Shown here in pieces: positions 7,377 through 23,656 of a stretch of DNA of 64,000 nucleotides. The number at the start of each line of letters is the position of its first letter. The first letter of the stretch is position 1. The notes beneath the pieces were generated by a model, which was not told the origin of the DNA, ran no database searches, and saw only the letters and a program-made list of their open reading frames with translations. This DNA comes from Blastopirellula sp. (GTDB lineage Bacteria > Planctomycetota > Planctomycetia > Pirellulales > Pirellulaceae): contig NVWB01000001.1 of NCBI GenBank assembly GCA_002733575.1, positions 62,001 to 126,000 on the forward strand, given 5' to 3'. Made by a program: the position numbers and the translations under genes.

Positions 7377-8516
7377 TTAGGGCAATTCTAAGGCCGCCGA
7401 CAAAACACCAATGGCTGCGCTCACTTGCTGTACAGTCGAGAACCTCCCAAAACTGAAACGAATGCACTCTGATGCCATTTGGTGATCAAAGCCCATTGCC
7501 TGCAAGACATGGGATGGCTCAATAGATCCGGACGAACATGCTGATTGTGTTGATGCTGCAATCTGTGGCTGTAGACGCGCCAAAAGATCTGAGGCGTCGC
7601 GGCCTTGAAACCGCATCAGAGCATTTCCAGGATGTCGGCATTCCAGCGTTCCAACTAATGTAGCGGTTTGCTTTTCTTCAAGTTTCCTCACGAAAAGGTC
7701 ACGAATACATGCCAAACTTTCGCGCTCGGTTTTTCCGATCTCTCCAACAAGCCGACAGGCTTCACCAAAGCCGACGATTAGTTCTGTCGGCATAGTACCA
7801 CCACGCCGTCCGCCTTGTTGTCCCGCGCCAATAACAACCGGCTTTACCATCCCTGAAGCACCGGGGCCCGTCAGTAGAGCACCAACCCCTTTGGGACCGT
7901 AAAGTTTATGGGCAGAGATGGTGGCCAAGGCGATGTCGAGATCAAGTAGATCAAGATCCATCGCGAGAGGCGCTTGCGCGAGATCGGCGTGAAACAAAAC
8001 ACCGCTGGACCTACAGATGTCGGAAATCGCTCTAAGATCAGCAATTTCACCGTTCTCATTGTTAACGCCAACGATGGATACGAGAGCGGTAGCATCGCTT
8101 AACAACGTTTTCAAATGTTCAGGATCGGGTGCGCCGCAGTCGTTGAGGGCAATAAACCGGGTAACAAACCCACTATATTTCGCTTCATTGAGTATCGAAC
8201 CGTGGTCTGCCGCGCCGATCAAAATTTCTGTGCGCTGAGACCGTTCGGCAATAGCTTGTGCTGTGCGAAACACCATCGCGTTTGCTTCGCTTGCGCCTGA
8301 CGTAAAAATCACGTCATCGCCTTGAAGTCCAAAGAGATTTCCAACTTGCAGGGCTGCCTTCTCAATGGCTGCAGCAGCGTGCCATCCGAGCGCATGATCG
8401 ACTGCGTGTGGGTTAGCAAAAAGCGTAACTGACGCCTCTTGCATGACCTTCAAGACACGCTCATCGACAGGCGTTGAGGCCTGATAATCAAGATAGATGG
8501 TTTCACCAACCTGCAT
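7377..8516 (-). CDS. sspA: Cysteine desulfurase, SspA/DndA-like
   Basis: This 379-residue PLP enzyme of the NifS/IscS class has the PLP lysine in SAHKLYGPKG and the active-site cysteine in QSACSSGS. It takes sulfur from L-cysteine as a protein persulfide. In Dnd and Ssp phosphorothioation systems this enzyme supplies sulfur to the ATP pyrophosphatase (here SspD), and the divergent neighbours sspBCD make that role likely. The start at 8516 (MQVGETIYLDYQ) is chosen because the extended frame to 8606 would run over the sspB start. A housekeeping IscS-like role cannot be excluded from sequence alone. Confidence 0.85.
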   Translation of the reverse strand: MQVGETIYLDYQASTPVDERVLKVMQEASVTLFANPHAVDHALGWHAAAAIEKAALQVGNLFGLQGDDVIFTSGASEANAMVFRTAQAIAERSQRTEILIGAADHGSILNEAKYSGFVTRFIALNDCGAPDPEHLKTLLSDATALVSIVGVNNENGEIADLRAISDICRSSGVLFHADLAQAPLAMDLDLLDLDIALATISAHKLYGPKGVGALLTGPGASGMVKPVVIGAGQQGGRRGGTMPTELIVGFGEACRLVGEIGKTERESLACIRDLFVRKLEEKQTATLVGTLECRHPGNALMRFQGRDASDLLARLQPQIAASTQSACSSGSIEPSHVLQAMGFDHQMASECIRFSFGRFSTVQQVSAAIGVLSAALELP

Positions 8517-8594: not shown

Positions 8595-9533
8595 GTGAGC
8601 GCACAAGATTTAAAGTCGGACGATTATCGTCCATCTTTCTCGGGACATGAGACCTTTCCTTTACGCTATGGTTGGCTGCAAAAGGCGTATCGCGCCGTCA
8701 GCGAAGCACCAACAGCGAAAGACGCTGTGCATGTTTTCCGGGATCCGGAATCAATCGCACGATTTGGCGTGGGCCGCAACATGGTCGGCGCAATTCGGCA
8801 TTGGGCGATCGGCGCGGGGATACTTGAAGAAACTAAAGAGGGCCTTGAGACGACATGGCTTGGGTCCATGCTGTTCGGCGAGGATGGAATTGATCCGTAC
8901 CTAGAAGAGGATGCTTCACTTTGGCTGCTTCATTGGCATTTGGTCTCCCGTCCTCGGCTCACATCAGCCTATTGGCTGTTTAACGAGTTTAGAGGAGGCA
9001 GTTTTGTTCGGCAGGATATCGTCGCACCTCTTCTTAAACTTGCACAAGAACGTGGGTGGCGCCGAGTGGCGTCAACAACAGTTGATCGGGATCTGCAATG
9101 CCTTCTCAGGACCTATATCGGTGGCCGCGGCTCAAGCGAAGCGGGAGAATCCATACTTGCTGAACTTGGGCTGATCCGTCCGATGGATAAAACGCGGTCG
9201 CGTCTGTCCCGAGGGCGAAAGCCGAATTTACCCAATTCAGTATTCCTTCATTGCTTCAATGAGTTCTGGGCAAAATTTGCACCTGATCAGGCAACTATGT
9301 CATTTGAAAATGCCGCTTATGCGCCCGGTTCCCCGGGCCGAGTATTCTTGCTTGATGAGGATGACATCGTTGATCGCCTTGAGCAGCTCGAAGAAATTTC
9401 AGGTGGAGCATTGGCTTGGTCAGAAACAGCAGGACTGCGACAGATCATCCGCGCCAAAAAACGGTCGATGAAATCGGAGCGACGCATTCTGCGCGAAGCG
9501 CTGATGAGCGATCGCTTGCGGGTGGCCGCATGA
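8595..9533 (+). CDS. sspB: SspB-like DUF4007 protein
   Basis: This 312-residue protein begins with a region typical of DUF4007, including FSGHETFPLRYGWL near residue 15. In the Ssp system SspB is the DUF4007 member, reported to nick DNA during single-strand phosphorothioation. I chose the GTG at 8595 because AGGAGGT stands just before it; the longer frame from 8550 runs through the promoter repeats. The last codons overlap sspC in an ATGA, so sspB and sspC are translationally coupled. No catalytic residues can be named from sequence alone. Confidence 0.8.
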   Translation: MSAQDLKSDDYRPSFSGHETFPLRYGWLQKAYRAVSEAPTAKDAVHVFRDPESIARFGVGRNMVGAIRHWAIGAGILEETKEGLETTWLGSMLFGEDGIDPYLEEDASLWLLHWHLVSRPRLTSAYWLFNEFRGGSFVRQDIVAPLLKLAQERGWRRVASTTVDRDLQCLLRTYIGGRGSSEAGESILAELGLIRPMDKTRSRLSRGRKPNLPNSVFLHCFNEFWAKFAPDQATMSFENAAYAPGSPGRVFLLDEDDIVDRLEQLEEISGGALAWSETAGLRQIIRAKKRSMKSERRILREALMSDRLRVAA

Positions 9534-12500
9534 GCGATTCCGTTTCAATAACACCAAGATTTCGCCGATCGGTTCGCCTCGATACCGATTTTGCCTCGGC
9601 AACTGCAATTGATGGCTTTCACTGTCCGGCTTCTTTCCAAGCGGCCGTGACCTTTATGGCCGCGCACATCGCTGATACGGAACAAGGTGCATTTACGTGG
9701 ACCGGGCCTTATGGCGGCGGCAAGTCGAGCCTGGCGGTTGCGCTTGCCTGTCTTTTTGGTGCACCCAAGCAGATACGAGAACAGGCCGCGTCCTTGTTTG
9801 GCGAGCCAGTGATCGCCGCGTTGAAGGACGCCCTGCCCTATTTCCCATCTCGCTGGGATGTGCTGCCGCTGGTCACTGAACGCCGCTCAATTGCGATACA
9901 GCTTGCAGAGCTTCTAGATCTCACTGTCTCATCAAGTGCATCGGACATCTTAAAAGAAATCGAACGCAGAACGACGGATCGCGGACTTCTTTTGATCATG
10001 GATGAGCTTGGTCGCGGGTTAGAGGCGGCAGCCGACGGAGAAGGCGACCTCCATCTCCTGCAGGACATCGCTGAACTCGCAGCTCGCAGCCAGGGCAAGT
10101 TCATATTCCTCGGAATCCTGCACCAAGCCTTCGAGGAATATGCTGAGCGCCTCGGTCGCAAAGCGCGCGATTCCTGGGCGAAAATTCAGGGGCGGTTTGT
10201 CGATATTTCGATCTCGGTATCGCTTGAGGAGACTATCGAACTAATTGGCGAGGCGCTCGGGCATGAACGCGCTGTCCGCAAAGCTATCCCATTGGCCGAA
10301 GATTGCGTCGAGCAATTGCGCCCCGCACGCAAAAAAACCGAAGCGAAGCGGATGGCCGGAAAGCTTGCACGTACTGCCCCTCTTCACCCGCTGACGGCTT
10401 GCTTGGTGGGTCCGCTCTCACGGCGACGTTTTGGTCAGAACCAACGAAGCGTGTTCTCCTTTCTAAGTTCTGCCGAGCCTTTCGGGTTGCAGGATGCCCT
10501 CAATAAAGAAGCCGTCGATGGTACCTACCCGCCGCATCTTTTGTGGAATTACCTACAGGCCAATTTTGAAGCTGCCATTCTGTCATCACCGGACGGGCGT
10601 CGGTGGGCATTGGCGCATGACGTTCTTGAACGATGTGTAGCGCGCGGTGCAGGTGATCTTGAACAATATGTATTGAAAACCATTGCGATTTTTGAACTGC
10701 TCAAAGACCGCTCGGGACTTGCGACAAATCTTGATACGATTGCACTGGCGCTCAATGATACCAATCGTTCAGATGTAGAGGCGGCGCTCGCACGCCTCGA
10801 ACAGCAATCCGAAATCGTTTTCCGGAAACACACAGGCATATACGTGCTCTACGCGGGATCGGATTTTGACGTCGAGGCTCGTTTGGGGGAAATTCTGTCG
10901 GAACCGACAGACATTGATCTTAACATGGTTCGCTTGCTGGCTGATCTCCAACCGATGCTGGCGAAGCGCCATCATGAGGAAACAGGCGCGATGCGATGGT
11001 TCGAGATGTCTATCGACCCCGCATCCGAGTTGGAGGATTTCAAGCCGCCTAAATACGCCCAGGACATCTTTGGACGCATCGTGTTTGCATTGCCAATGGA
11101 CGGCGAGAGCCAAGAGGAAACCATCAGCGCATGTGAGCGCGCAGCACGCGCTCAAAGTGCATTTCCGTTGATCATTGGCCACCATGCTGACGCAGCCAAA
11201 CTTCTCGATCTTGCGCGGGAACTTGCAGGACTCAACGCTTTGGAACGGAAATTTCCAGAGCTCCGGGGTGACCCGATTGCACGGCGGGAAATCGATGCCC
11301 GTATCACAGAGGTCCGTCAGAAGCTTGAGGATATACTTCATGCCCTGATCGACGAATGTCAGTGGTTTGTTGCAGATCAGAAAGCGCAACGCCTGACCAA
11401 GCGTCTCTTGAACGAGCAGTTATCCACCCTGGCGGATTCGATCTTCAGCGATGGACCACTTATCCGCAATGAGCTTCTAAATTGCTCTGAACCATCCTCA
11501 AATGCGGTTAGTGCGCGAACCAAACTCATGAAACGCATGGCAATGCGCGGTTCCGATATCAATCTTGGGTTTGACGGGAAGAATTATCCCGCAGAACGCG
11601 GGCTCTACATATCCCTCCTGCAGGAAACTGGAATTCATGTTGAGGGCGATTTTGGCGCTCCTTCCAAAGGCGACACGCTGTATCCATTGTGGCAAGTGGC
11701 TGACAGTCTGCTCTCATCAGTGCAGGGAGTTGTGGGAGCCGATAAGGTAATTCAGGCTTGGGGTAAGGGCCCGATTGGGTTGAAGGCCGGACTTGGACCG
11801 GTGTACTTGTCTGCCTATATTTTGTCGCGTCGTGATCGCGTCGCGGTTTACGGCGAAGGTATCTTTCAAGCGAGCTTCAATGAACTTTGTGTTGAATTTC
11901 TTGCGCGTGCCACCAAGGACATTGGTCTGCGCCGGGTTGAGATGGAAGGCTTTGTTGGAGACACGCTTGAGACCCTCGGTGGACTTTTAAAAATCAAAAG
12001 GCCTGCCGAACCTCTTTTGGTTGCACGAACAATTATTGGTGAGTTCGATTCGCTGGTGCCTTGGACTTCCAGAACCCAATCGCTTTCCCCCCAGACACTC
12101 AGGGTACGCGAAATTCTCAAACGCGCCAGTGATCCCAACAAACTCTTGTTTGATGATTTACCTCGCCTGACCAAGCCTTTGGCCGATGGCAGCTTTGATG
12201 CGAAAGCAACGGCAGTCCTGCTCAGAGATGCACTAGCAGAAATGCGCGCTGCCTATCCAAAAGTGCTCGATGATTTGAAAGATCTGATGCTGCGGGAACT
12301 GGACGTGCGCAGCCACAGCGAGGACGCTTTCAAAGACTTGCGCGACAGATCAGACAACATCCGGAATATTGGTGGCGACTTGCGCCTAGAGGCTTTCGTC
12401 GGACGACTGACGCAGTTTCACGGCACGCGCGAGGATATGGAAGGGCTTGCTGGTGTCGCTGTAAACAAGCTTCCCAGAGACTGGAACGACGGCGATCGCG

Positions 12501-12820
12501 AACGCGCTGCCGTCGGCCTTACCGAGCTTGCGACTGAATTTCTAAAGACAGAAACAATGGCTCGGGTGAAAGGTCGCAAAGATAGGCGCCATGCCATGGC
12601 CGTTGTGGTTGGCAAGGAGAACATGCCGCATTCGCTTTTTAGCGAATTCCAAGTTGCCGATGTCGATTGGCATGATGTCGAAACACTGGCTGGAACTCTT
12701 GATCGCGTTTTGAAAGAAGCCGATCATCAGAGCCGCGAGATTATTCTGGCAGCTTTGATCGAGGTCACATCCAAATACCTCAATACAAGCGATGAACTCC
12801 GCGTGGGAGAACGGGCATGA
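9530..12820 (+). CDS. sspC: SspC-like large P-loop ATPase
   Basis: This 1096-residue protein has a Walker A motif GPYGGGKSS at residues 59-67 and a Walker B-like IMDELGRG with the acidic pair at about 158-159. The rest is long and mostly helical, without another domain I can name. In SspABCD systems the third modification gene encodes an ATPase acting with SspB and SspD, which fits this position. The gene overlaps sspB (ATGA at 9530) and sspD (ATGA at 12817). The assignment rests mainly on gene order and the P-loop; BREX-type ATPases are a distant alternative, but no pglZ or methylase is present. Confidence 0.75.
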   Translation: MSDSVSITPRFRRSVRLDTDFASATAIDGFHCPASFQAAVTFMAAHIADTEQGAFTWTGPYGGGKSSLAVALACLFGAPKQIREQAASLFGEPVIAALKDALPYFPSRWDVLPLVTERRSIAIQLAELLDLTVSSSASDILKEIERRTTDRGLLLIMDELGRGLEAAADGEGDLHLLQDIAELAARSQGKFIFLGILHQAFEEYAERLGRKARDSWAKIQGRFVDISISVSLEETIELIGEALGHERAVRKAIPLAEDCVEQLRPARKKTEAKRMAGKLARTAPLHPLTACLVGPLSRRRFGQNQRSVFSFLSSAEPFGLQDALNKEAVDGTYPPHLLWNYLQANFEAAILSSPDGRRWALAHDVLERCVARGAGDLEQYVLKTIAIFELLKDRSGLATNLDTIALALNDTNRSDVEAALARLEQQSEIVFRKHTGIYVLYAGSDFDVEARLGEILSEPTDIDLNMVRLLADLQPMLAKRHHEETGAMRWFEMSIDPASELEDFKPPKYAQDIFGRIVFALPMDGESQEETISACERAARAQSAFPLIIGHHADAAKLLDLARELAGLNALERKFPELRGDPIARREIDARITEVRQKLEDILHALIDECQWFVADQKAQRLTKRLLNEQLSTLADSIFSDGPLIRNELLNCSEPSSNAVSARTKLMKRMAMRGSDINLGFDGKNYPAERGLYISLLQETGIHVEGDFGAPSKGDTLYPLWQVADSLLSSVQGVVGADKVIQAWGKGPIGLKAGLGPVYLSAYILSRRDRVAVYGEGIFQASFNELCVEFLARATKDIGLRRVEMEGFVGDTLETLGGLLKIKRPAEPLLVARTIIGEFDSLVPWTSRTQSLSPQTLRVREILKRASDPNKLLFDDLPRLTKPLADGSFDAKATAVLLRDALAEMRAAYPKVLDDLKDLMLRELDVRSHSEDAFKDLRDRSDNIRNIGGDLRLEAFVGRLTQFHGTREDMEGLAGVAVNKLPRDWNDGDRERAAVGLTELATEFLKTETMARVKGRKDRRHAMAVVVGKENMPHSLFSEFQVADVDWHDVETLAGTLDRVLKEADHQSREIILAALIEVTSKYLNTSDELRVGERA

Positions 12821-13650
12821 GTACAACACGACACGTTTTAGGTCTTTCGGGAGGGCGCGATAGCGCTGCTTTGGCCATATTCATGCGTCAAAGACATCCG
12901 GAAATTGAAGTCGAATATTTCTTCACTGACACAGGCAAAGAATTGCCTGAAGTGTACGAGTATCTGACCCGCCTTGAAGGCTATCTTGGCAAGCCAATAC
13001 GACGCTTAAACCCGGATCGGGATTTTGACTTTTGGCTCAAGAGTTACAAGAGCTATCTGCCTTCCGCGCAGTCCCGGTGGTGCACACGCCAGCTCAAGCT
13101 TCGCCCGTTCGAAAAATGGGTGCGTGAGTTTCTTCAAGCTGGTGAAACAGTCATCTCTTATGTCGCGATCCGCAGCGACGAAGAATACCGAGAGGGCTAT
13201 CAGTCAAACAAAGAGAAGCTCCTGGTCAGGTTACCTTTCAAAGATGTCAGCATTGATAAAGCGGGTGTTATTGAGATCCTAGAAGGATCAGGATTAGGAC
13301 TTCCGGATTACTATAGGTGGCGCAGCCGCAGTGGCTGCACATTTTGCTTCTTTCAACAAAAAATCGAATGGGTGCGCTTGCAGAAAGAGCATCCAGAAGC
13401 GTTTGAAGAAGCCAAACGATATGAAAAGACTGCGATTGAGCACGGGTCACCATTCACGTGGAGCCAGGGCGAGTCACTTACCGACCTTGAGCAGCCGGAA
13501 CGTCAGGAACAGATCAGATTGGATCACGAGAAGCGTTTGGCTAGGGCACGCGCGCGAATTCAGGCAAACCCATTGCGCCCAGATACACCGTTGGACTTAG
13601 ACGACGTATACGGCGGAGCTGCCAAAGCATGCCTCACGTGTCACAAGTAA
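12817..13650 (+). CDS. sspD: SspD-like ATP pyrophosphatase (PAPS reductase family)
   Basis: This 277-residue protein has the PP-loop motif SGGRDS at residues 10-15 and an FFTDTGKELPE segment typical of the PAPS reductase/DndC group. Cysteines occur as WCTRQLK, CTFC and C-terminal CLTC, a set that could hold an Fe-S cluster as in DndC. Such enzymes adenylate the DNA backbone and insert sulfur delivered by the cysteine desulfurase. It is coupled to sspC by an ATGA overlap and ends the sspBCD unit. DndC is the alternative name, but dndB, dndD and dndE are absent and a DUF4007 gene is present, which favours Ssp. Confidence 0.85.
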   Translation: MSTTRHVLGLSGGRDSAALAIFMRQRHPEIEVEYFFTDTGKELPEVYEYLTRLEGYLGKPIRRLNPDRDFDFWLKSYKSYLPSAQSRWCTRQLKLRPFEKWVREFLQAGETVISYVAIRSDEEYREGYQSNKEKLLVRLPFKDVSIDKAGVIEILEGSGLGLPDYYRWRSRSGCTFCFFQQKIEWVRLQKEHPEAFEEAKRYEKTAIEHGSPFTWSQGESLTDLEQPERQEQIRLDHEKRLARARARIQANPLRPDTPLDLDDVYGGAAKACLTCHK

Positions 13651-13844: not shown

Positions 13845-16199
13845 ATGTTTACAGTAACAGCGCGTACAGTATTGGAGCTTGGAGCCGAACTCATCTCGTC
13901 GGATGTAATTGCGTTTTATGAACTGATAAAGAACGGTTTTGACGCCAAATCAAAATCTGGCGTTACCATTCGTTTCCAAATCCTTTTGACACAACGCGCC
14001 GCACAAGTAATAGGACGCGCCTCCATACAGGACTTGAGCGAGCTCCGCAATTTTGTGGCTCACCAAATTGAGAGAGGCGCAAGCTCGTCCGTCAAGACCG
14101 CTTTTGAAGATGAGATGGATGAGGCAACTTCCTTGGAAGAGTTGCGTCGCATCGTCAGCGCAGCACCACGGAAGTATAACAGAATAATTGTCGAAGATAC
14201 TGGCGATGGCATGTCAGCAGGCGATCTGAAGAGCGCCTTTCTAGTCATCGGAACTTCCTCTCGACGCGATGCTGTGGCGAAGGCTTTGGACAGCGGCGAA
14301 GAGGCTTCGCCGTATTTGGGTGAAAAGGGTATTGGTCGCCTTAGCGCGATGCGGCTCGGTGACACGCTCAAAGTAATGAGTGCGACTAAGGCCGACACGA
14401 ACCAAAATATCCTCAAGATCGATTGGAACGATTTTTCCGAGCCAGGTCTGATGCTCGAAGATATCGATGTTAAGCCTCGCCGAGGCCCAAAAAAGGAAGA
14501 CCCATCCTACCAAGGAACGAAACTCTATATTGGTGAACTCCAAAAATCTTGGTCGCGCGAAAAAGTCACCGAACTAGGAAAATATGATTTTGCCAGACTG
14601 ATAGATCCCCGGATGCCTCAAAAGCAGCGCCCAAAAGTAACCATCTTCTACAATGATGAGCGCATTGCCATTCCCAGACTACCGAGCTCTTTACTTGAAG
14701 CTGCTCATGCAACGATGATGGGCCGATTTGAGTATATCGAAGGTGAGCCCATTTTGACATGCAATGCCGAAGTGAAAGACTTGGAGTTCGAGCATCCTCC
14801 TGAGACCCACACATATGTGCTCGGGTCGAAAGAAATGGAAGGCGTGTTCAGCGATGAGCTTGGTGAAGTCCTTGACGACGCCCTAGAGGAGTTGGGACCA
14901 TTCGAGTTCGAACTTTACTGGTACAATCGTCGAAGGTTGAGCCGGGTCGATAGCACTGGACAAAACAAATCTCTTCGGGAATTGCAGGATCAATGGTCTG
15001 GGATTATGCTCTTTAGAGATGGCTTTCGGGTCTTTCCATATGGAGAAGATCGCGATGACTGGTTGGATTTGGATCGCAAAGCGCTGAGGCGCAGTGGCTA
15101 TCTCTTCAACAAGACACAATTCATCGGACGCATATCGATATCTCGAACCAAGAACCCACATCTGATCGACCAAACAAATCGCGAAGGTCTTCGTGAAAAC
15201 GAAGAGCAGCAAGCTTTCCTAAATATTGTGAAGTGGGCGACGCAATATGCATTCGGCGACGCATTCGCAACAACGGAGCGAGAGCACAAGCCACAGAAGA
15301 CGAAAATTGTTGGCGCTGCGAGCCGCCTGAAGACTCTGGAAGGACGTGTAAAAACCGCCGTCAGCGGGCTCCGCGACGTTTTGCCGCCTGATCAAACGAA
15401 GCCGGTCGATGAAGTCCAACACACGCTCCAAGAACTACTTGCATTTGCTGAGGCCTTGCGAGGACGAATTGATGAGGCGGAAAAGGAGGGTCGGCAGCTA
15501 CTAGACATGGCAGGCGTCGGATTGATGGTAGAGGTCGTTGCACACGAGCTGGCTCGATCCTCTGAAAACGCTCTTGATGTCCTAGGTGCGCTGAAAAATG
15601 CTGATGTGTCTGATGAGGTAAGATCACAACTTTCAACATTGCAGTCTGCTCTAAAGTCTCTCAGTAAAAGAATCCGTATCCTGGATCCCATGAGTATTTC
15701 TGGCCGCCAAACACGAGAGGCGTTCGATCTAAAGAAAGTTGTCGGCGAGGTTTTGGACGCGCATCAATCGCAATTTGATCGCGAAAACATTACAGTTATA
15801 CGCAACGACGACAGCGCGCCTGTCCGCGTGCATGCTGTCCAAGGGATGGTCATCCAAGTTCTTGAGAACCTGATATCAAATTCTGTGCATTGGTTAGATG
15901 TACGTGGTCGTCGCGAAGCCAATCTTAGCCCGACCATTCGAATATCAGTTGAAGCAAACCCTCCCCTCATTACCTTCGAAGACAATGGGCAAGGGATCAG
16001 CTCTGAGAATTCTGACAAGGTATTTCACCCGTTCTTTTCTCTGAAGGAAAAGCGCAAGAGACGGGGACTGGGTTTATATATTGCGCGTGAGATCGCTTCA
16101 TATCACAAGGGATCCCTTTCATTATCCAACCATGTGGATGAAGAAACGAACCGTCTCCATCGTTTTTTGTTTGAGCTGCCTGAGGAAGCAAGCCGATGA
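13845..16199 (+). CDS. Protein with two GHKL ATPase domains (MORC/Hsp90-like and histidine-kinase-like)
   Basis: This 784-residue protein has two ATP-binding folds. The N-terminal one shows N-box ELIKNGFDA (26-34), EDTGDGM (117-123) and GEKGIGRLS (159-167), as in MORC/Hsp90 ATPases. The C-terminal part reads like a histidine kinase: an H-box-like VVAHELARS with His at 567, N-box ENLISNS (about 672), EDNGQGIS and GLGLYIA (about 740). The middle 200-450 looks like an S5-type and linker region. No transmembrane segment is visible, so it should be cytoplasmic. It overlaps the receiver-like gene by ATGA. I infer that the pair forms a phosphorelay that senses infection or controls an effector; this is untested. 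Confidence 0.75.
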   Translation: MFTVTARTVLELGAELISSDVIAFYELIKNGFDAKSKSGVTIRFQILLTQRAAQVIGRASIQDLSELRNFVAHQIERGASSSVKTAFEDEMDEATSLEELRRIVSAAPRKYNRIIVEDTGDGMSAGDLKSAFLVIGTSSRRDAVAKALDSGEEASPYLGEKGIGRLSAMRLGDTLKVMSATKADTNQNILKIDWNDFSEPGLMLEDIDVKPRRGPKKEDPSYQGTKLYIGELQKSWSREKVTELGKYDFARLIDPRMPQKQRPKVTIFYNDERIAIPRLPSSLLEAAHATMMGRFEYIEGEPILTCNAEVKDLEFEHPPETHTYVLGSKEMEGVFSDELGEVLDDALEELGPFEFELYWYNRRRLSRVDSTGQNKSLRELQDQWSGIMLFRDGFRVFPYGEDRDDWLDLDRKALRRSGYLFNKTQFIGRISISRTKNPHLIDQTNREGLRENEEQQAFLNIVKWATQYAFGDAFATTEREHKPQKTKIVGAASRLKTLEGRVKTAVSGLRDVLPPDQTKPVDEVQHTLQELLAFAEALRGRIDEAEKEGRQLLDMAGVGLMVEVVAHELARSSENALDVLGALKNADVSDEVRSQLSTLQSALKSLSKRIRILDPMSISGRQTREAFDLKKVVGEVLDAHQSQFDRENITVIRNDDSAPVRVHAVQGMVIQVLENLISNSVHWLDVRGRREANLSPTIRISVEANPPLITFEDNGQGISSENSDKVFHPFFSLKEKRKRRGLGLYIAREIASYHKGSLSLSNHVDEETNRLHRFLFELPEEASR

Positions 16200-18193
16200 C
16201 CTTAGAAGAAATCTTGAAAGACAAAGGTATTTCTCGCGCACTTATTGTAGATGACTGTTTTGATGAAATTCCGTTGGCCAATGATCTTGCTGATATTGAT
16301 GCCCAATGGGCAAACTTCCACGATGATTGGGACGATGACATCGAGATCGCTGTGGGGAGTGTGTACGAAGGCAATTTGGATGAGCCATACGAGCTACGAA
16401 GTAATGATGCCTATGTTGAAGCTCTTTGGAACTTACGAAAAAACATCGGGGCCGAAGCAATTTTCGAAGATTATGAGGCGGCACAACGTTTCGATATTGA
16501 AGCGGTTGCACGCCTCGAAGCATATCTTGGAGAACTCGGATTAAACTGTGTGCGGGCCGGCAGAGCATTTGCAGATCAGCCCGTTGAAACGGACCTGATT
16601 GTAATCGACCTTTTTCTTGGTGCCACTCAGGACCCGGGCGCAGCAGACCTGTCAAAAAGCGGCCTGAGCAGAGTGGCCAAGCAGTACGGGCCAGAAATGC
16701 CGCCAGTTATCCTCTTCTCAAACAGCTCCCGGCTCGCGCACAAGAAGGAAGAGTATCGCGACGTTGTCGGTCTTCTAGAGTCGGGTTTTCGTATCCTAGG
16801 TAAGTCGGAATTGAAGACTGACGGCGCACTTAAGCGACAGCTTGAGCGATTGGTCGTCAATCGCAATGAGACCAAAGCTCTAGCTGGTTTTTTGGACGCG
16901 TTGGAAAAAGGGATGGCAGAAGCGTCAAATCGAACGCTTTCTCTGATGCGGGGCATGAATCTCTCTGACCTGTCACAAGTTCGACAATTGCTTTTGGAAT
17001 TCGAGGGCAAGGCGATGGGGGCCTACCTCGTTGATGTTTTTGATCGTGTTTTGCAATACGAAATCGAGGGTCAGGAAGCAATTATCGCTGCCGCCGATGA
17101 ATTGAGCAAGCTCGACGAGCTTAGCCCCGGTCCGCCCTATTTGGCGGGCGAAATCAAAACGCAAGATTTGGTCGCACGGATGATTTCTCAGGCCGGTGCT
17201 AGATTGCCTTTGGGTGGGAGCGACGCTTTTCCGGTGGTGTTTGGAGATGTTTTCATTGAGATAAATGAGCAAGTTGATGACAACGAACTTCATCTGCAAG
17301 CTGATCAACAGCTTGGGGTCGTAGATGAAGCACAAGAAGCCGTCGTTGTCCCGCAACAAGATGAATCCTCTGAAGTCTTCTTAGTAGTGACACCCGCGTG
17401 CGATCTTGTCCGAGGGGCAGCAGAGTCCGTTCTTCTACTGAAAGGGCGGTTTCGCCCAATCACGGATCAAAGTTGGCTCTATAAGGGTGACAGAAGCCCT
17501 GCGGTTTCAATTCAAGGCACGTTGTGCCGTATCGATTGGGATCTTCAAAAATACCAAACGAGGGAGTTCTCCAACATCAAGGGCGCGATCGACAAGGGTG
17601 AACTGGTCAGAGTCGCACGCCTTCGTCAGCCTCACACCCTCGAATTACAGCAGAAACTACTGACATCATTGGGACGGGTCGGTTTGCCTGCACCCATGCC
17701 TGCAAGCATCAAGACAACAATTGATGCATACATTTACGGAGCCGATCGGAAGATCAAGCGGGTCGAAGTGCCTGAACTTTCTGTGGGAAGTGCCTGTTTC
17801 GTTGGACGAGACAAGGATGCGAACAGGGTTGTGAGTTTGGTTCTAGCAGAAGCTGCCTGTGAAAATGTCCTAAAAGCGCTCGACAACTTATCTGAAGATG
17901 ACGTCCATGCCTCCGGCAAAGCCGCGCTCAAAGCGATGACATCCTCAACCGAGCTTATTCAGCGGCTGGAAGCCGGCGTCCAACTCAAAAGCCCGGATGA
18001 AGGAGCTTCAAAGGAGATCAAGGTCGAGACCAAGGGGGGACAGGTGACAGTATTGCACCTAATTTGGAATGGCGAACAACCTCCGGACGAACAACCGGTA
18101 AAAAGCAAATTGTTGCAGGGGCTGGTTTTTCATGTGCGGACGCATTCAGAGCAACTAGAGCAAGCAAATATGCCAACTGAACAAGAAGCCTGA
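16196..18193 (+). CDS. Receiver-like protein with long unknown C-terminal region
   Basis: The first 210 of 665 residues look like a divergent receiver domain: the acidic pair VDD at 18-20, a phospho-acceptor candidate Asp138 in VIDLFLG, a Ser-rich strand end in VILFSNSS, and the conserved lysine in ILGKSEL (Lys203). A large insertion (about 30-110) separates the acidic pair from the acceptor. The remaining 450 residues match no domain I know; they contain an acidic stretch near 355-395 and a TPACDLVRG segment. No DNA-binding output domain is evident, so this is not an ordinary response regulator. It is coupled to the kinase-like gene (ATGA), its likely phosphodonor. Confidence 0.65.
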   Translation: MTLEEILKDKGISRALIVDDCFDEIPLANDLADIDAQWANFHDDWDDDIEIAVGSVYEGNLDEPYELRSNDAYVEALWNLRKNIGAEAIFEDYEAAQRFDIEAVARLEAYLGELGLNCVRAGRAFADQPVETDLIVIDLFLGATQDPGAADLSKSGLSRVAKQYGPEMPPVILFSNSSRLAHKKEEYRDVVGLLESGFRILGKSELKTDGALKRQLERLVVNRNETKALAGFLDALEKGMAEASNRTLSLMRGMNLSDLSQVRQLLLEFEGKAMGAYLVDVFDRVLQYEIEGQEAIIAAADELSKLDELSPGPPYLAGEIKTQDLVARMISQAGARLPLGGSDAFPVVFGDVFIEINEQVDDNELHLQADQQLGVVDEAQEAVVVPQQDESSEVFLVVTPACDLVRGAAESVLLLKGRFRPITDQSWLYKGDRSPAVSIQGTLCRIDWDLQKYQTREFSNIKGAIDKGELVRVARLRQPHTLELQQKLLTSLGRVGLPAPMPASIKTTIDAYIYGADRKIKRVEVPELSVGSACFVGRDKDANRVVSLVLAEAACENVLKALDNLSEDDVHASGKAALKAMTSSTELIQRLEAGVQLKSPDEGASKEIKVETKGGQVTVLHLIWNGEQPPDEQPVKSKLLQGLVFHVRTHSEQLEQANMPTEQEA

Positions 18194-18343: not shown

Positions 18344-19978
18344 GTGAATCACACCGCGCCAGGTATATCGATTAAAGAACTGCTCCTGGCCGCAAAACCA
18401 AGGTCAGTCCGCCAATTGTTGCCCCAGCCCACCTTAGACCTCATTGAAAGGATGTCTCCGGGTTTACTGGAGACTGACGAAGCCAACCGAGTTGCTATTG
18501 CGACAATTGATCCAACGGAAGCCATACATGACGCGAAGACACGGTCTCAGATCATCAGATTACTTCCATTGTCAAAGGCACGTGAATTCTGCGAGAAACT
18601 TGGTCTTGCGGTCGGCCGTAGCCCCTACGACGCAATTGAAGAGGGTATCCAACGTATTGGTATCGAACCGCTCTGCGATTTTTTCGGGATTGTAGATGAT
18701 CCAAGAGCCCCGAAGCCAATGGCGCCTTCATCACATGAGGCAGCCGTTTCCTACGGGTTGTTTCCCCACCAAAGAGTGGCAGCAGGCAAGGTCGCAACAG
18801 CACTGCGGCAACCACCCCGAAAAGTTATCCTTCACATGCCGACGGGGGCGGGCAAGACGCGCACAGCAATGCATCTCGTAGCGCGACACCTCCGCGAATT
18901 TGGTCCGACAGTAGTTGTATGGCTTGCACAGAACCGGGAATTACTCGACCAAGCTTCCGAGGAATTTGAAAAGGCGTGGCTACCACTCGGAGATCGGTCG
19001 GTTCAACTGATGCGTTTTTGGGGTAATAGGCGCGCGCCACTTGAAGAGTTGAAAGATGGTTTGGTGGTCGCGGGCCTTGCAAAGATGGCGAGCCTGGATG
19101 CTCGAGATGTGGCGACGCTGCTACAACTCGCCGACCGAGCGTCTCTGACGATAATCGATGAAGCACATCAAGCGATAGCACCCACTTACGCGAGTGTTCT
19201 CCGAGCCTTAACTTCAAAACGACCCGAAAATGCACTCCTCGGTTTGACCGCGACACCTGGGCGCAGTTGGTCAGAGATTGAGGAAGACAAACGCCTCTCT
19301 GATTTCTTTGAGGGACAAAAAGTTCTCTTGGAAGTTGAGGGCTATGACGATCCAGTATCATTTCTGATGAAAGAGAAGTACCTCGCACGTCCGGTTTTCC
19401 GGCAGTTGGAAGCGCCGTCAGAGGTGCATTTGGATAAAGCAGATCAAAGTACGATTCACAATGACCCGGATCTTTCGGACGAGTTCCTCGAAAAGCTTGG
19501 GCGTGACACGGCGCGCACGGAAGCAATCCTCGGGGCCATCGTCGATGCGATCACAAGGCATGACCGCATCATTGTATTTGCTCCATCCGTTGAGAACGCC
19601 AAGCTCCTTCAAGCGATGCTAACAATTAATGACATCGAAGCGCTTTTCGTCTCCGGCGAGACTGAAACGACCGAACGAGAACGAAGAATACGCCGATATA
19701 AGTCAAATGCCCGCAATAAAATTGTCATGGTGAACTTTGGCGTACTAACAACCGGATTTGATGCACCACGCACAAGTTGCGCGATTATCGCAAGGCCGAC
19801 GCGGTCTCTCGTACTTTACAGCCAGATGGTTGGAAGAGCGACCCGCGGGCTACGAGCTGGCGGTAACGAAGAAGCAGAGATCATTACTATCACGGATCCG
19901 AGCCTGCCGGGCTTTGGGAGCGTGACTGAAGCATTTTCGAATTGGGAGGACGTTTGGAATGAACCAGTCAGCGAATGA
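18344..19978 (+). CDS. SF2 DEAH-box helicase
   Basis: This 544-residue superfamily 2 helicase shows motif I MPTGAGKTRT, motif II IIDEAH, motif III GLTATPGR, motif V VLTTGFDAPR and motif VI QMVGRATRG, the layout of type I/III restriction and UvrB-like translocases. A domain of about 130 residues precedes the helicase core and is unassigned. I chose the GTG at 18344 because GGAAGGA stands nine bases upstream; a TTG at 18326 is possible but weaker. The end overlaps the MORC-like gene by 20 bases. SF2 helicases next to MORC-like ATPases and nucleases are a known restriction-type pattern. Confidence 0.85.
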   Translation: MNHTAPGISIKELLLAAKPRSVRQLLPQPTLDLIERMSPGLLETDEANRVAIATIDPTEAIHDAKTRSQIIRLLPLSKAREFCEKLGLAVGRSPYDAIEEGIQRIGIEPLCDFFGIVDDPRAPKPMAPSSHEAAVSYGLFPHQRVAAGKVATALRQPPRKVILHMPTGAGKTRTAMHLVARHLREFGPTVVVWLAQNRELLDQASEEFEKAWLPLGDRSVQLMRFWGNRRAPLEELKDGLVVAGLAKMASLDARDVATLLQLADRASLTIIDEAHQAIAPTYASVLRALTSKRPENALLGLTATPGRSWSEIEEDKRLSDFFEGQKVLLEVEGYDDPVSFLMKEKYLARPVFRQLEAPSEVHLDKADQSTIHNDPDLSDEFLEKLGRDTARTEAILGAIVDAITRHDRIIVFAPSVENAKLLQAMLTINDIEALFVSGETETTERERRIRRYKSNARNKIVMVNFGVLTTGFDAPRTSCAIIARPTRSLVLYSQMVGRATRGLRAGGNEEAEIITITDPSLPGFGSVTEAFSNWEDVWNEPVSE

Positions 19979-21794
19979 AAATGAAGGTGAGATTGGCGCA
20001 GAGATCATTCCCCCGGAACTTGCCGTACGCGCCATGCGTGATAGCGGCTATAGGAACACCGACTATGCTCTCGCTGAGTTAATTGATAATTCCGTACAAG
20101 CCAACGCGACGCAAGTTGATGTCATCTGTCTCGAGGTCATGAAGCAGGTTAGTCAGAGAAAAAGTCGGCGTATTGAACAGATCGCGGTCGTCGACAACGG
20201 AGACGGCATGACGCCAGAAACGCTCAGGATCGCGTTACAGTTCGGCAACGGAACACACTTAAAAGACCGAAAGGGGATTGGGCGCTTCGGCATGGGGCTT
20301 CCGAATTCTTCAATATCGCAATGCCGACGAGTAGAAGTCTGGTCTTGGCAGGCTGGACCAAAAAATGCGATGTGGACATATTTGGACGTCGACGAAATCG
20401 AAACTGCCGGCCTGAAAGCCGTACCTCGACCGGTGCCCAAGCCGGTTCCGGAAGAATGGCGGGAACGTTCAGAGCTCTTCGGAACTTCTGGGACACTGGT
20501 TCTATGGTCCAACTTTGACGATCACCGACTTCAATGGCGCGGTGCAAAGGCGACACTCGAGAACACCGAGACTTTAATTGGACGCATGTATCGTAAGTTC
20601 ATTGATGCAGGTGATCTAACAATACGCCTTGCGGCCTATCATGATGGTGAAGCGACATTTGACGCACCAACGCGCGTCAACGATCCGCTATATATCACCC
20701 CACAATCATCCACTCCTCCTCCCTTTGACAAGGAGCCGATGTTTCAGACATGGGGAGAGGGCGATCAGGAGTTTTCGATCGAGATTGATGGTTCGACCCA
20801 TCTCGTTACCGTCCGTATCAGCTGGGCAAAAGAAGACACCGTCACGCGGGGCTCTTCTGCAGATCGAGGATCGACGGCCTATGGCAAACATGCCGCAAGA
20901 AACGTGGGAGTCTCTGTCGTGAGGGAGCGGCGCGAGCTTGAGCTCGATAAGGCATGGACAATTGGATACGACCCTCGGGAAAGATGGTGGGGTATTGAAG
21001 TCGAGTTTCCGTCGGCACTCGATGAAATCTTCGGCGTCACCAACAATAAGCAACACGCCAACACATTCGCCGCTATGGCTCAGTTTGACTGGGAAGAGGA
21101 AGCCGAACCCGGTGAGCAGCGATCGGTGTTCAGGGAACGTACCCTCGCCAGCGGCGATCCTAGAGGGCTGCTGATAGACATAGCGGAGTACATCCAAGAT
21201 CAGCTCGATGAAATCCGGCGCAGGATCAAGGCTCAGACAAAGGGCAAGCGCAGTACCCAAAAAAGGCATGACGACCCTGATGTCGACGATCAGGCAACCG
21301 ACAAGTTTAATGAACGCGCCGAGGGCGGCCACGAGGCTTCTTCAGACGAGGCTGGGTTTTCTGATGATGACCAGTCCAGGCTGCAAGACGATCTAACCGA
21401 AAATGATCACTACTCGGCTGAAGGTGCAAAGAACATCGTCGATGCTATCGTCAGCCGAAAGCGCAAAGTCCAATTTTCAACCGGACATCTCGACGGTCAT
21501 CACTTCTTCTCCACAAAACAATTCGGAGATCTGACGAAGATTACTTTCAATACGAACCACCCGATATATGAACAGCTGCTTGAAGCCTTGGACCCAGACA
21601 CGGAGGACGACACTGATGCAGATCTTCTTGATCGTGTTCATAAGGCTTCTGATACGCTGAAGCTTCTCTTCGCGGCTTGGGCTCGATACGAACTTGAAGA
21701 AACCCAGAAGCACGATGATCTTATGGAAATGCGCCAGGAATGGGGTAAGATGACGAAAGTGTTCCTGCGGGAAAATGCTGAGGACAGTAAGTGA
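19959..21794 (+). CDS. MORC-like GHKL ATPase
   Basis: This 611-residue protein has a clean Bergerat fold at its N terminus: N-box ELIDN (40-44), VVDNGDGM (77-84) and GIGRFGMGLP (106-115). This is the MORC/MutL type seen in prokaryotic paraMORC proteins. A probable S5-like domain follows to about 350, then a charged linker (about 400-470) and a C-terminal helical part. Comparative genomics places such proteins in restriction-like systems with SF2 helicases and endonucleases, as here. The gene overlaps the helicase gene upstream and the phospholipase-D-type gene downstream (GTGA), so the three are coupled. No nuclease motif is visible in this protein itself. Confidence 0.8.
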   Translation: MNQSANENEGEIGAEIIPPELAVRAMRDSGYRNTDYALAELIDNSVQANATQVDVICLEVMKQVSQRKSRRIEQIAVVDNGDGMTPETLRIALQFGNGTHLKDRKGIGRFGMGLPNSSISQCRRVEVWSWQAGPKNAMWTYLDVDEIETAGLKAVPRPVPKPVPEEWRERSELFGTSGTLVLWSNFDDHRLQWRGAKATLENTETLIGRMYRKFIDAGDLTIRLAAYHDGEATFDAPTRVNDPLYITPQSSTPPPFDKEPMFQTWGEGDQEFSIEIDGSTHLVTVRISWAKEDTVTRGSSADRGSTAYGKHAARNVGVSVVRERRELELDKAWTIGYDPRERWWGIEVEFPSALDEIFGVTNNKQHANTFAAMAQFDWEEEAEPGEQRSVFRERTLASGDPRGLLIDIAEYIQDQLDEIRRRIKAQTKGKRSTQKRHDDPDVDDQATDKFNERAEGGHEASSDEAGFSDDDQSRLQDDLTENDHYSAEGAKNIVDAIVSRKRKVQFSTGHLDGHHFFSTKQFGDLTKITFNTNHPIYEQLLEALDPDTEDDTDADLLDRVHKASDTLKLLFAAWARYELEETQKHDDLMEMRQEWGKMTKVFLRENAEDSK

Positions 21795-22702
21795 AAATTG
21801 GCGATAACCTGTTGTCGGTTCTCCGCAGCGCCCAAAAAAGAGTTCGTATCGCAGCGCCTTTCATTAAGGTGCCAGCTCTTGAGCGTGCATTGTCGGTTGT
21901 TCCAGACGACGTTGAAGTGACATGTGTGACGCGCTGGAGGCCAGAGGACATTGCCAGTGGTGTTTGTGACCTTGAGATATTTGATTTGATAAAGAGCCGG
22001 GATCGGTCCGTTCTGCTAATCCACCCTCATCTCCACGCAAAATTCTTCGCGGCTGATACGGCCTGCCTCGTTGGTTCGGCCAATCTATCGTATACGGCAC
22101 TCGGATGGCGGATACCGTCAAACATTGAACTGTTGGTTAAACTCGACACTTTCGATCACGGGCTGGATGATTGGTGGCGAGCGCTGCAAGCCGAGAGTAT
22201 AAACGCAACTGATGAGATACGCTTTGCGATAGAGCGAGAAGCTGCGGAACTTAGAGCCACCAAAAAGCCTATCGCGCGGCCGGAGGCCGACCAACACAAA
22301 GACTATGACGACTCAACTTGGGTGCCTGAGTGCCCGAGATGGACCGGCCTTTGGGAGGTCTATTCTGGTGACGAAGAACAGTTACCGAGCAGTGCACTTG
22401 CCTCCGCCAAATCTGATCTCGCGACCTTAAGCCTGCCCCCAGGTATGAATTTTATGGGATTTGAAAAGGCACTGCGAACGGCGTTTCGCCATACAAGAAT
22501 TTTTGATGAGATTGACAAACTCGCTCAAGAAGGGCTGACCGATCTCGCAGCCAGCTCTTTGTTGATCGAGAAATTTGATATCGAATCGGGGAATGTCCCC
22601 CGTCGATGGCAGCTGATCAAGCGCTGGCTAAGCGAACTCTATCCGGAAGATTTTAGGGTGGAGGCAAACCAGGAAGTTCTTCTCAAAGGGAAGAACTTAT
22701 GA
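21791..22702 (+). CDS. Phospholipase-D-type nuclease with one HKD motif
   Basis: This 303-residue protein has a single HKD motif: His82, Lys84 and Asp89 in HLHAKFFAAD, followed by GSANLS (95-100). A single-motif member must dimerise to build the active site, as in Nuc/BfiI-type nucleases. The start is the GTG at 21791, overlapping the stop of the MORC-like gene. It is the best candidate for the DNA-cutting subunit of the helicase-MORC unit. The last 150 residues are unassigned and may bind partners. DISARM also has a PLD protein, but its DUF1998 and methylase genes are absent. Confidence 0.75.
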   Translation: MKIGDNLLSVLRSAQKRVRIAAPFIKVPALERALSVVPDDVEVTCVTRWRPEDIASGVCDLEIFDLIKSRDRSVLLIHPHLHAKFFAADTACLVGSANLSYTALGWRIPSNIELLVKLDTFDHGLDDWWRALQAESINATDEIRFAIEREAAELRATKKPIARPEADQHKDYDDSTWVPECPRWTGLWEVYSGDEEQLPSSALASAKSDLATLSLPPGMNFMGFEKALRTAFRHTRIFDEIDKLAQEGLTDLAASSLLIEKFDIESGNVPRRWQLIKRWLSELYPEDFRVEANQEVLLKGKNL

Positions 22703-22753
22703 ACTTTGCGCCAGGAGGATCGGAATATCGAGGGGGGGACGGATTTCGACAAA

Positions 22754-23656
22754 CTACAAATGAAGCTCTAGCGCTTTCACTAAATATCTACTGTGTCTTT
22801 CGTAAACACCCTTCTCCAATCCGGTCAACTCAAGGTCAGCTGAGCCCTCTTTTATTATCTTAGGAACTGATTGGATTCGTTGTGTTAGGTCTGCTCTTAG
22901 TCCGTTTGCCCAAGATCTGACCCGCTCTGTTGTATCCGGATCAACTAGATTTCCCAAGTCGCGATACGACTCGTTTAGCCTTGCAGACGGACTCCCAACT
23001 GACTTTCGGCAGGTAGGGCAGGCGAGATATCCGAGAAAAGGGAATTTGTGCTCGCTGAGTAAGAGCCCGGTCAAATAGATCTCAGATGGTAGAAACCACC
23101 CGGAATTTGGTTGCCATTCGGAAGTAACGTAATCCAGTAGCTGCATATTTGAAGCGCTCTTCTTGTAAGTTTCAAAAAAGGCCTCAATGGCTCGTGCAAA
23201 AAAACAGTCATAGTGCCAGTCACTACAGCATTTTGGATAGCCAAGACTGTGTTCTTCACCGACTTCATGACACCGACCGTCTTCATAAGCGCTCGCGATA
23301 GTCTTATTGCAGGTCAGCCAAAAGATCCTTTGCGGAGTTTGAAAACCCGCCATGAACGCGGCCCGTAATGCTTCATCATCCAATTTCAGCCGCCGACTAG
23401 GATGGTATACTGGAATCGTAGCGAACCCCCTGAAGACATCAACGTCACCAAATAGTTCCACTAAATCCAAGTACAGCTTTTCTCGTTCTGGATTATGGGT
23501 CATCGCAAAGAAGGAAGGTTTTTCGGATTCCAACACTTTGAGAATTTGCAACTTTTCACAGAAGGCCGATTGCAAATCGATATGAGCGCTCTGATGCTCA
23601 TCAAACTTCTGAGCTACAAGTTCGTACCATTGTTCATGGGACTTTGAAGTTCTCAT
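22754..23656 (-). CDS. Unknown protein with a YPxCC motif and a CPTC pair
   Basis: I do not recognise this 300-residue protein with confidence. It contains GYPKCCSDWHYDCF around residues 138-151, recalling the GYPxCC motif of DUF483-type proteins, and a second cysteine pair in ACPTCRKS. These could bind a metal. It faces the helicase-MORC-PLD operon and ends 51 bases from it, at the edge of the island. It may be cargo of the island or an unrelated gene; nothing here shows which. Confidence 0.6.
   Translation of the reverse strand: MRTSKSHEQWYELVAQKFDEHQSAHIDLQSAFCEKLQILKVLESEKPSFFAMTHNPEREKLYLDLVELFGDVDVFRGFATIPVYHPSRRLKLDDEALRAAFMAGFQTPQRIFWLTCNKTIASAYEDGRCHEVGEEHSLGYPKCCSDWHYDCFFARAIEAFFETYKKSASNMQLLDYVTSEWQPNSGWFLPSEIYLTGLLLSEHKFPFLGYLACPTCRKSVGSPSARLNESYRDLGNLVDPDTTERVRSWANGLRADLTQRIQSVPKIIKEGSADLELTGLEKGVYERHSRYLVKALELHL

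Follow-up and report, generated by a model that had tools for sequence, protein, structure and literature searches.

What do three overlapping genes for an SF2 helicase, a MORC-family ATPase and a PLD-superfamily protein do close to the phosphorothioate (PT) modification genes sspABCD? The question was raised by one locus of the window, which here means the whole stretch of 64,000 nucleotides that was analysed. The genes of this locus are as follows.

7377-8516, minus strand: sspA, cysteine desulfurase (sulphur donor), Cys of the SACSS loop present (PADLOC SspA, 1e-100; Aminotran_5)
8598-9533, plus strand: sspB (DUF4007; PADLOC SspB, 8e-96; PF13182, 5e-77)
9530-12820, plus strand: sspC, BrxC-like P-loop ATPase with Walker A GPYGGGKS (PADLOC SspC, E=0)
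12817-13650, plus strand: sspD, PAPS-reductase-like phosphorothioation enzyme, full length (PADLOC SspD, 4e-135, 1-277/277)
13845-16199, plus strand: accessory histidine-kinase-like protein with HATPase_c_3, HEF_HK and HATPase_c (PF13589; PF19191, 2e-5; PF02518)
16196-18193, plus strand: accessory receiver-like partner of the kinase, assigned from linkage and VDD and VIDLF motifs only, without a Pfam match
18344-19978, plus strand: SF2 helicase/translocase with a RadD-like core and an N-terminal extension of about 135 aa (Pfam, NCBIfam, profile match, motifs)
19959-21794, plus strand: MORC-family GHKL-S5 ATPase with a C-terminal helical and beta extension (Pfam, profile, fold, motifs)
21791-22702, plus strand: single-HKD PLD-superfamily nuclease-like protein with a C-terminal helical domain (Pfam, motifs, fold model)

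The helicase gene runs from a GTG at 18344 to its stop at 19978 (544 aa), with GGAAGGA about 10 nt upstream, the MORC gene from an ATG at 19959 to 21794 (611 aa) and the PLD gene from a GTG at 21791 to 22702 (303 aa). The ORF calls gave an overlap of 20 nt between helicase and MORC and of 4 nt (GTGA) between MORC and PLD, so that the overlapping starts and stops reported in the preliminary description were confirmed, with exact coordinates. The four ssp genes are all full length (PADLOC E-values of 1e-95 or better), and sspA is divergent from the sspB-sspC-sspD block (8598-13650). After sspD come the kinase-like gene, the receiver-like gene and then the helicase-MORC-PLD triad. Since the kinase/receiver-like pair (13845-18193) intervenes between sspD and the helicase, the triad is near sspBCD in the window and not contiguous with it; of the adjacency described earlier, the closeness and a conserved link to ssp were upheld, while contiguity was not. 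A 54-aa ORF (22700-22864) overlaps the PLD stop; it has no counterpart among the genes listed for the nearest relative (L038), a list restricted to genes of at least 100 aa. A scan for promoters and terminators gave sites that were no more frequent than in shuffles. A 300-aa protein is encoded on the minus strand (22754-23656), in the gap that separates the triad from clustered IS remnants at 24-29 kb, and neither a Pfam, PADLOC or NCBIfam match nor a homologue in related loci was found for it.

The MORC protein of the window is 83% identical to a Roseovarius MORC, and none of 59 relatives has it above 38% identity. The contig looks like one of the Roseobacter group (window positions 29000-53000), with an IS481 that is 86% identical to those of Phaeobacter plasmids. 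The assembly comprises 9.25 Mb in 438 contigs and is possibly a mixed bin.

We then examined the three proteins of the triad. The helicase matched ResIII (2e-22) and Helicase_C (6e-13) in Pfam, and its profile matches were RadD (4e-47) and SauUSI (2e-21). Its motifs GAGKT (position 168), DEAH (272) and QMVGRATR (494) are intact, Walker A, DEAH and motif VI are conserved, and the core residues are invariant in 63 homologues. The MORC protein matched HATPase_c_3 (2e-21) and carries intact ELIDN (40), DNGDGM (79), GIGRFGMG (106) and NNKQ (362) motifs. The N, G1 and G2 motifs of ATP binding (E-DN, DxGxG, GxGxxG) are thus present, and residues E40, D43, N44, D79 and G83 are invariant in 70 homologues, as is K364, the Lys of NNKQ, which is the basic residue of the S5 domain. 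The motif of MORCs proper, GhXhhpXXRhl, may correspond to GVSVVRERREL in this protein, which fits save for a Glu at one hydrophobic position, and the protein may be either a MORC proper or a paraMORC. Animal MORC2, MORC4 and MORC3 were the first matches of the profile search, and the nearest folds of the model were MORC3 (Z 21.7) and MORC4 (Z 21.2), in matches that span residues 6-429 of 611 and cover the GHKL and S5 domains. Human MORC2, MORC3 and MORC4 are the nearest solved structures (Z of about 18-22); the bacterial protein differs from them in that no CW domain was found in it with Pfam and in its distinct C-terminal extension.

The PLD protein matched PLDc_2 at 2e-5, just under the Pfam cut-off. 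It contains exactly one HxKx4D (H82/K84/D89), in agreement with the single HKD motif and the numbering of H82 and K84 given earlier, followed by GSAN (95-98) and NIE (111-113). Residues H82, K84, S96, N98, N111 and E113 are identical in 70 of 70 homologues, while the Asp of the HKD motif is variable (D in 50/70). The structure model (pLDDT 91.7) matched the PLD domain of the restriction enzyme SauUSI best (Z 16.2, rmsd 2.1, 142 residues), then NucT/Nuc (Z 14.3) and BfiI (Z 13.5), in matches that span residues 1-149 of 303. SauUSI dimerises via its PLD domain, and its ATP-dependent cleavage is carried out by an HKD dimer (PDB 7clg; PMC7913695). The nearest folds, which include enzymes that dimerise through the PLD domain, back dimerisation of the PLD protein and do not prove it. 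That this protein would instead be a lipid- or DNA-binding scaffold and not a nuclease is suggested by the variable Asp and by TrmB and PPK, which share the fold and have other roles. We consider this quite unlikely, given that the remaining six catalytic-type positions are invariant, that the fold is nearest to those of SauUSI, Nuc and BfiI, and that a predicted endonuclease takes the place of the PLD protein at two of the loci described below.

The linkage of the triad to the ssp genes was determined by scanning 85,000 species genomes for the MORC protein, which gave 79 loci, the flanking genes of which were typed with profile HMMs built for this analysis. The helicase was found at 77 of the 79 loci and the PLD gene at 65, and sspB, sspC or sspD was present in the available flank of 74; the five loci without ssp were all shortened by contig ends. 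When the full 10-kb flanks were available, 49 of 49 loci carried ssp genes, in six phyla, 48 of them clearly and one (L058) weakly, with sspA and a 67-bit sspC match at the edge of the locus. A tblastn search of plasmids with the MORC protein gave 12 close matches and one more distant match (Treponema, H16), and those inspected belong to triads of helicase, MORC and nuclease with ssp genes next to them, in Alphaproteobacteria, Cyanobacteria, Hymenobacter and Treponema. More distant plasmid MORCs lack ssp neighbours, such as a Roseivivax MORC which lies beside the Druantia gene druA without ssp. The occurrence of the triad in dozens of unrelated genomes puts this gene set far beyond chance, and the exclusivity of ssp around MORC excludes chance when compared with the base rate of DUF4007, the SspB family, which is present in 41 of 1571 sampled genomes. 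The sspBCD link of the triad is conserved and specific. A MORC restriction system that is independent of Ssp and only shares defence islands with it would be in line with the MORC, SF2 helicase and nuclease operons that occur elsewhere with DNA methylases (PMC2292703). However, exclusivity to ssp argues against plain defence-island clustering as the source of the linkage, and ssp genes are present in every complete neighbourhood of the MORC clade, across phyla, in at least three orientations and through many switches of arrangement, which makes such independence very improbable.

Relative to ssp, the triad is either downstream in the same direction or encoded on the opposite strand, to one side or the other, and the MORC tree requires at least 14 changes of gene arrangement. 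The correlation of pairwise identities was 0.84 for SspC and SspD and 0.38 for MORC and SspC; at L055 and L163, the MORC proteins are 68% identical while the SspC proteins are only 24% identical. These changes of arrangement, together with similar triads beside very different SspC proteins, indicate that the module was repeatedly re-paired with different Ssp machines, and on these comparisons the link between the triad and Ssp looks functional rather than inherited baggage.

Random draws centred on Ssp showed the triad at 9 of 29 evaluable DUF4007 loci, with 4/10 in Pseudomonadota, 4/6 in Alphaproteobacteria, 1/5 in Actinomycetota and 0/8 in the phylum of the window assembly itself. Other drawn loci carried SspFGH, an SspE-like gene, as detected with a single-sequence model which misses divergent SspE, or PbeA with PbeC. 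This last locus (L158:8298-19005) has SspABCD directly followed by PbeA (HKD-SF2, 1e-185) and a PbeC-like ABC ATPase, which is a pairing of Ssp with Pbe, a system described with Dnd.

Variants of the triad were found in which the nuclease is fused or replaced. The L061 locus (Latescibacterota) has no separate PLD gene, and an NgoFVII/PbeA-type HKD domain is fused at the N-terminus of its triad helicase (L061:7558-9978), which is a chimera of the Pbe and triad types. On plasmids of Aminobacter and Agrobacterium (L014 and L015), the third gene is replaced by one that matches a CBASS-type endonuclease effector (7e-10 for the Aminobacter protein), which we read as a predicted Cap4-like endonuclease, and the DEAH box of the helicase is gone there. 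The Agrobacterium plasmid (L015:5705-20612) carries SspFGH together with this variant of the triad, with its Cap4-like nuclease and degraded helicase. The fusion of HKD with the helicase and the replacement of the nuclease support a putative nuclease role for the PLD protein.

Comparison of the triad with known systems showed that it is of the same operon type, MORC with an SF2 helicase and a nuclease, as the prokaryotic MORC/paraMORC R-M operons of Iyer 2008 (PMC2292703), as had been proposed at the outset, with a MORC protein which matches animal MORCs first in both profile and fold. Species of that study, such as Nitrococcus mobilis and Anabaena variabilis, are also in this set (L031 and H6). 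The study ties MORC operons to DNA methylases, and phosphorothioation is unmentioned in it. MORC is unmentioned in a 2024 reappraisal of PT and in a 2026 survey of BREX, and no paper tying MORC to Ssp was found among the freely accessible journal articles searched. The triad has no model as a named system in PADLOC (2023) or NCBIfam (2026). What is known is thus the operon type of 2008, unmentioned with PT; what is new is the dedicated pairing with Ssp, its breadth and the modular nuclease.

Like the triad, SspFGH of the SspABCD-SspFGH system (Vibrio anguillarum; PMC8092258) is a three-gene module beside sspBCD with ATPase and motor parts, and the cutting of DNA without the mark is a proposed logic shared by both. 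Its parts, however, are a Walker A protein, an unknown protein and an FtsK-like protein, whereas those of the triad are an SF2 helicase, a MORC and a PLD protein. No PADLOC match to SspF, SspG or SspH was found at E<=0.01 for the MORC and PLD proteins, nor among the 25 matches listed for the helicase, while the SspFGH proteins of L015 matched at 1e-219 or better. SspABCD-SspE has the modification genes in common with our locus, but SspE is one GmrSD-type NTPase-nuclease without homology to the triad, in which GmrSD_N (DUF262) with a C-terminal nuclease was not found with Pfam or PADLOC. The DndCDEA-PbeABCD or CxC-ABC systems (PMC6459918, PMC10853773) resemble the triad in having an HKD nuclease, an SF2 helicase and a clamp-type ATPase beside PT genes. 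They differ from it in that Pbe has a fused HKD-SF2 protein, an ABC ATPase and a Dnd partner, whereas the triad has separate genes, a GHKL/MORC ATPase and an Ssp partner. The triad was not assigned to PbeABCD, as its HKD protein is separate, its ATPase is of the GHKL and not the CxC ABC type, and its helicase matches PbeA weakly in PADLOC and in the motor part only. SauUSI (PDB 7clg; PMC7913695) is the protein to which the PLD domain is closest in fold, and the helicase matches it in sequence, but it joins PLD, SF2 and SRA in a single chain, the SRA-type part of which reads modified cytosine, whereas the triad is split into separate genes, includes a MORC and gave no SRA match in Pfam; it is thus not a type IV enzyme of the SauUSI type. 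Membership of DISARM was rejected as well, with only a weak match to the DrmC motif (3e-6 in PADLOC; a score of 23 bits in NCBIfam, where the cut-off is 133) and with DrmA and DrmB not listed for the ten proteins scanned.

Our preferred reading is that the triad is probably a restriction (effector) module dedicated to SspABCD, a further type of partner besides SspE, SspFGH and the Pbe-like modules, in which a motor, an HKD dimer and a MORC clamp would act together and DNA would be discriminated by its marks. This reading rests directly on the dedicated linkage to sspABCD, the intact catalytic motifs, the folds, the HKD-helicase fusion and the nuclease replacement. The SF2 helicase would be the ATP-driven motor that translocates on DNA, and the single-HKD protein, as a dimer, would make DNA breaks. 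The MORC ATPase would close on DNA as an ATP-gated dimer and couple or license the motor and the nuclease, and may thus fill the slot of the DndD-like ABC ATPase (PbeC) of the Pbe systems. The phosphorothioate marks made by SspABCD would decide whether DNA is spared or attacked. A phosphorothioate-reading domain was not recognised in the helicase, MORC or PLD protein. We infer that the three proteins form a complex, that DNA is cleaved and that the marks signal self. With less certainty, we take unmarked DNA to be the target, which is the SspFGH logic that we favour, rather than PT to be the trigger, which is the SspE logic.

The PLD-less loci bear on this last choice. The ssp genes are broken or missing at 11 of 13 loci without PLD and at 7 of 69 loci with PLD (Fisher 1.5e-7), nearly all of the former being from Nostocaceae and phylogenetically non-independent. 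Since they come almost all from one cyanobacterial clade, the co-loss of ssp and PLD is no more than a hint at a nuclease that may do harm or be of no use when DNA is unmodified. At some of the loci that lack PLD, SspE or a DndB-like gene is present instead. A triad that stays silent until PT marks of the host license it, and then damages unmarked phage DNA, would become useless and not toxic when ssp is lost. The founding Ssp partner, SspE, works in this PT-triggered way (PMC8092258), two PLD-less cyanobacterial loci have SspE in the operon, and PT licensing would predict the near-absolute linkage to ssp just as well. On the other hand, a motor with a separate HKD nuclease and a clamp ATPase resembles SspFGH, DndFGH or SauUSI more than it does SspE, which is a single protein, and toxicity accounts at least equally well for the absence of PLD from loci with broken ssp genes. 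We therefore regard licensing by PT as possible, though doubtful, and keep unmarked DNA as the favoured target.

An HNH_4 gene abuts a truncated helicase at nine loci of Nostocaceae and relatives (L059, L067, L069, L070, L071, L074, L077, L083 and L084). At these loci PLD is absent, ssp is often broken and MORC is intact, and the helicase is without its first 180 residues or so, including Walker A (checked in L070). HNH_4 was set aside as a replacement of the nuclease, because it truncates the helicase, deletes Walker A and occurs at other positions too; as the HNH gene is also found elsewhere in other loci, it may be a mobile insertion. A DndB/DGQHR-type gene is often located between sspD and the triad (L006, L019-L022, L028 and L096).

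The kinase/receiver-like pair of the window was found beside Ssp at 6 of the 79 loci (L024, L025, L029, L037, L038 and L043), and a homologue of the kinase is also present at L116 and L121. The pair was rejected as part of the core of the triad because of this low number and of its varying positions. In the literature, pairs of a HEF_HK kinase and a receiver are linked to R-M loci with cytosine methylases (PMC8011034); the receiver domain PF19192 was undetected in the receiver-like protein of the window even at E<=10. Such a pair could signal in an abortive or post-replicative role, in which the triad would sense phage replication intermediates or inhibition of Ssp and destroy the DNA of host and phage alike, PT serving only as a guard. 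For HKD-SF2 systems linked to PT, suicide has been put forward as a mode of action (PMC10853773). We find an abortive or post-replicative role unlikely, since the module has no fixed toxin-like regulator and the kinase pair is confined to those few loci.

A broader reading, to which we give even chances, is that the bacterial MORC would be the DNA clamp of a PT-guided restriction complex, interchangeable with ABC-type clamps, and that these loci would form an unnamed, cross-phylum class of Ssp effectors in which a constant MORC core is combined with different nucleases (a separate HKD, a fused HKD or a Cap4-like one).

Most sspBCD loci of a published survey are without SspE and SspFGH, and its authors suggested further restriction partners (PMC8092258). 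The triad, which is present at about a third of the drawn Ssp loci, is a concrete candidate for such a partner. Its operon combines a prokaryotic MORC with a motor and a nuclease and comes with a defined DNA mark. This would open the biochemistry of bacterial MORCs, from which a eukaryotic family of chromatin-silencing proteins has been proposed to descend, to direct tests.
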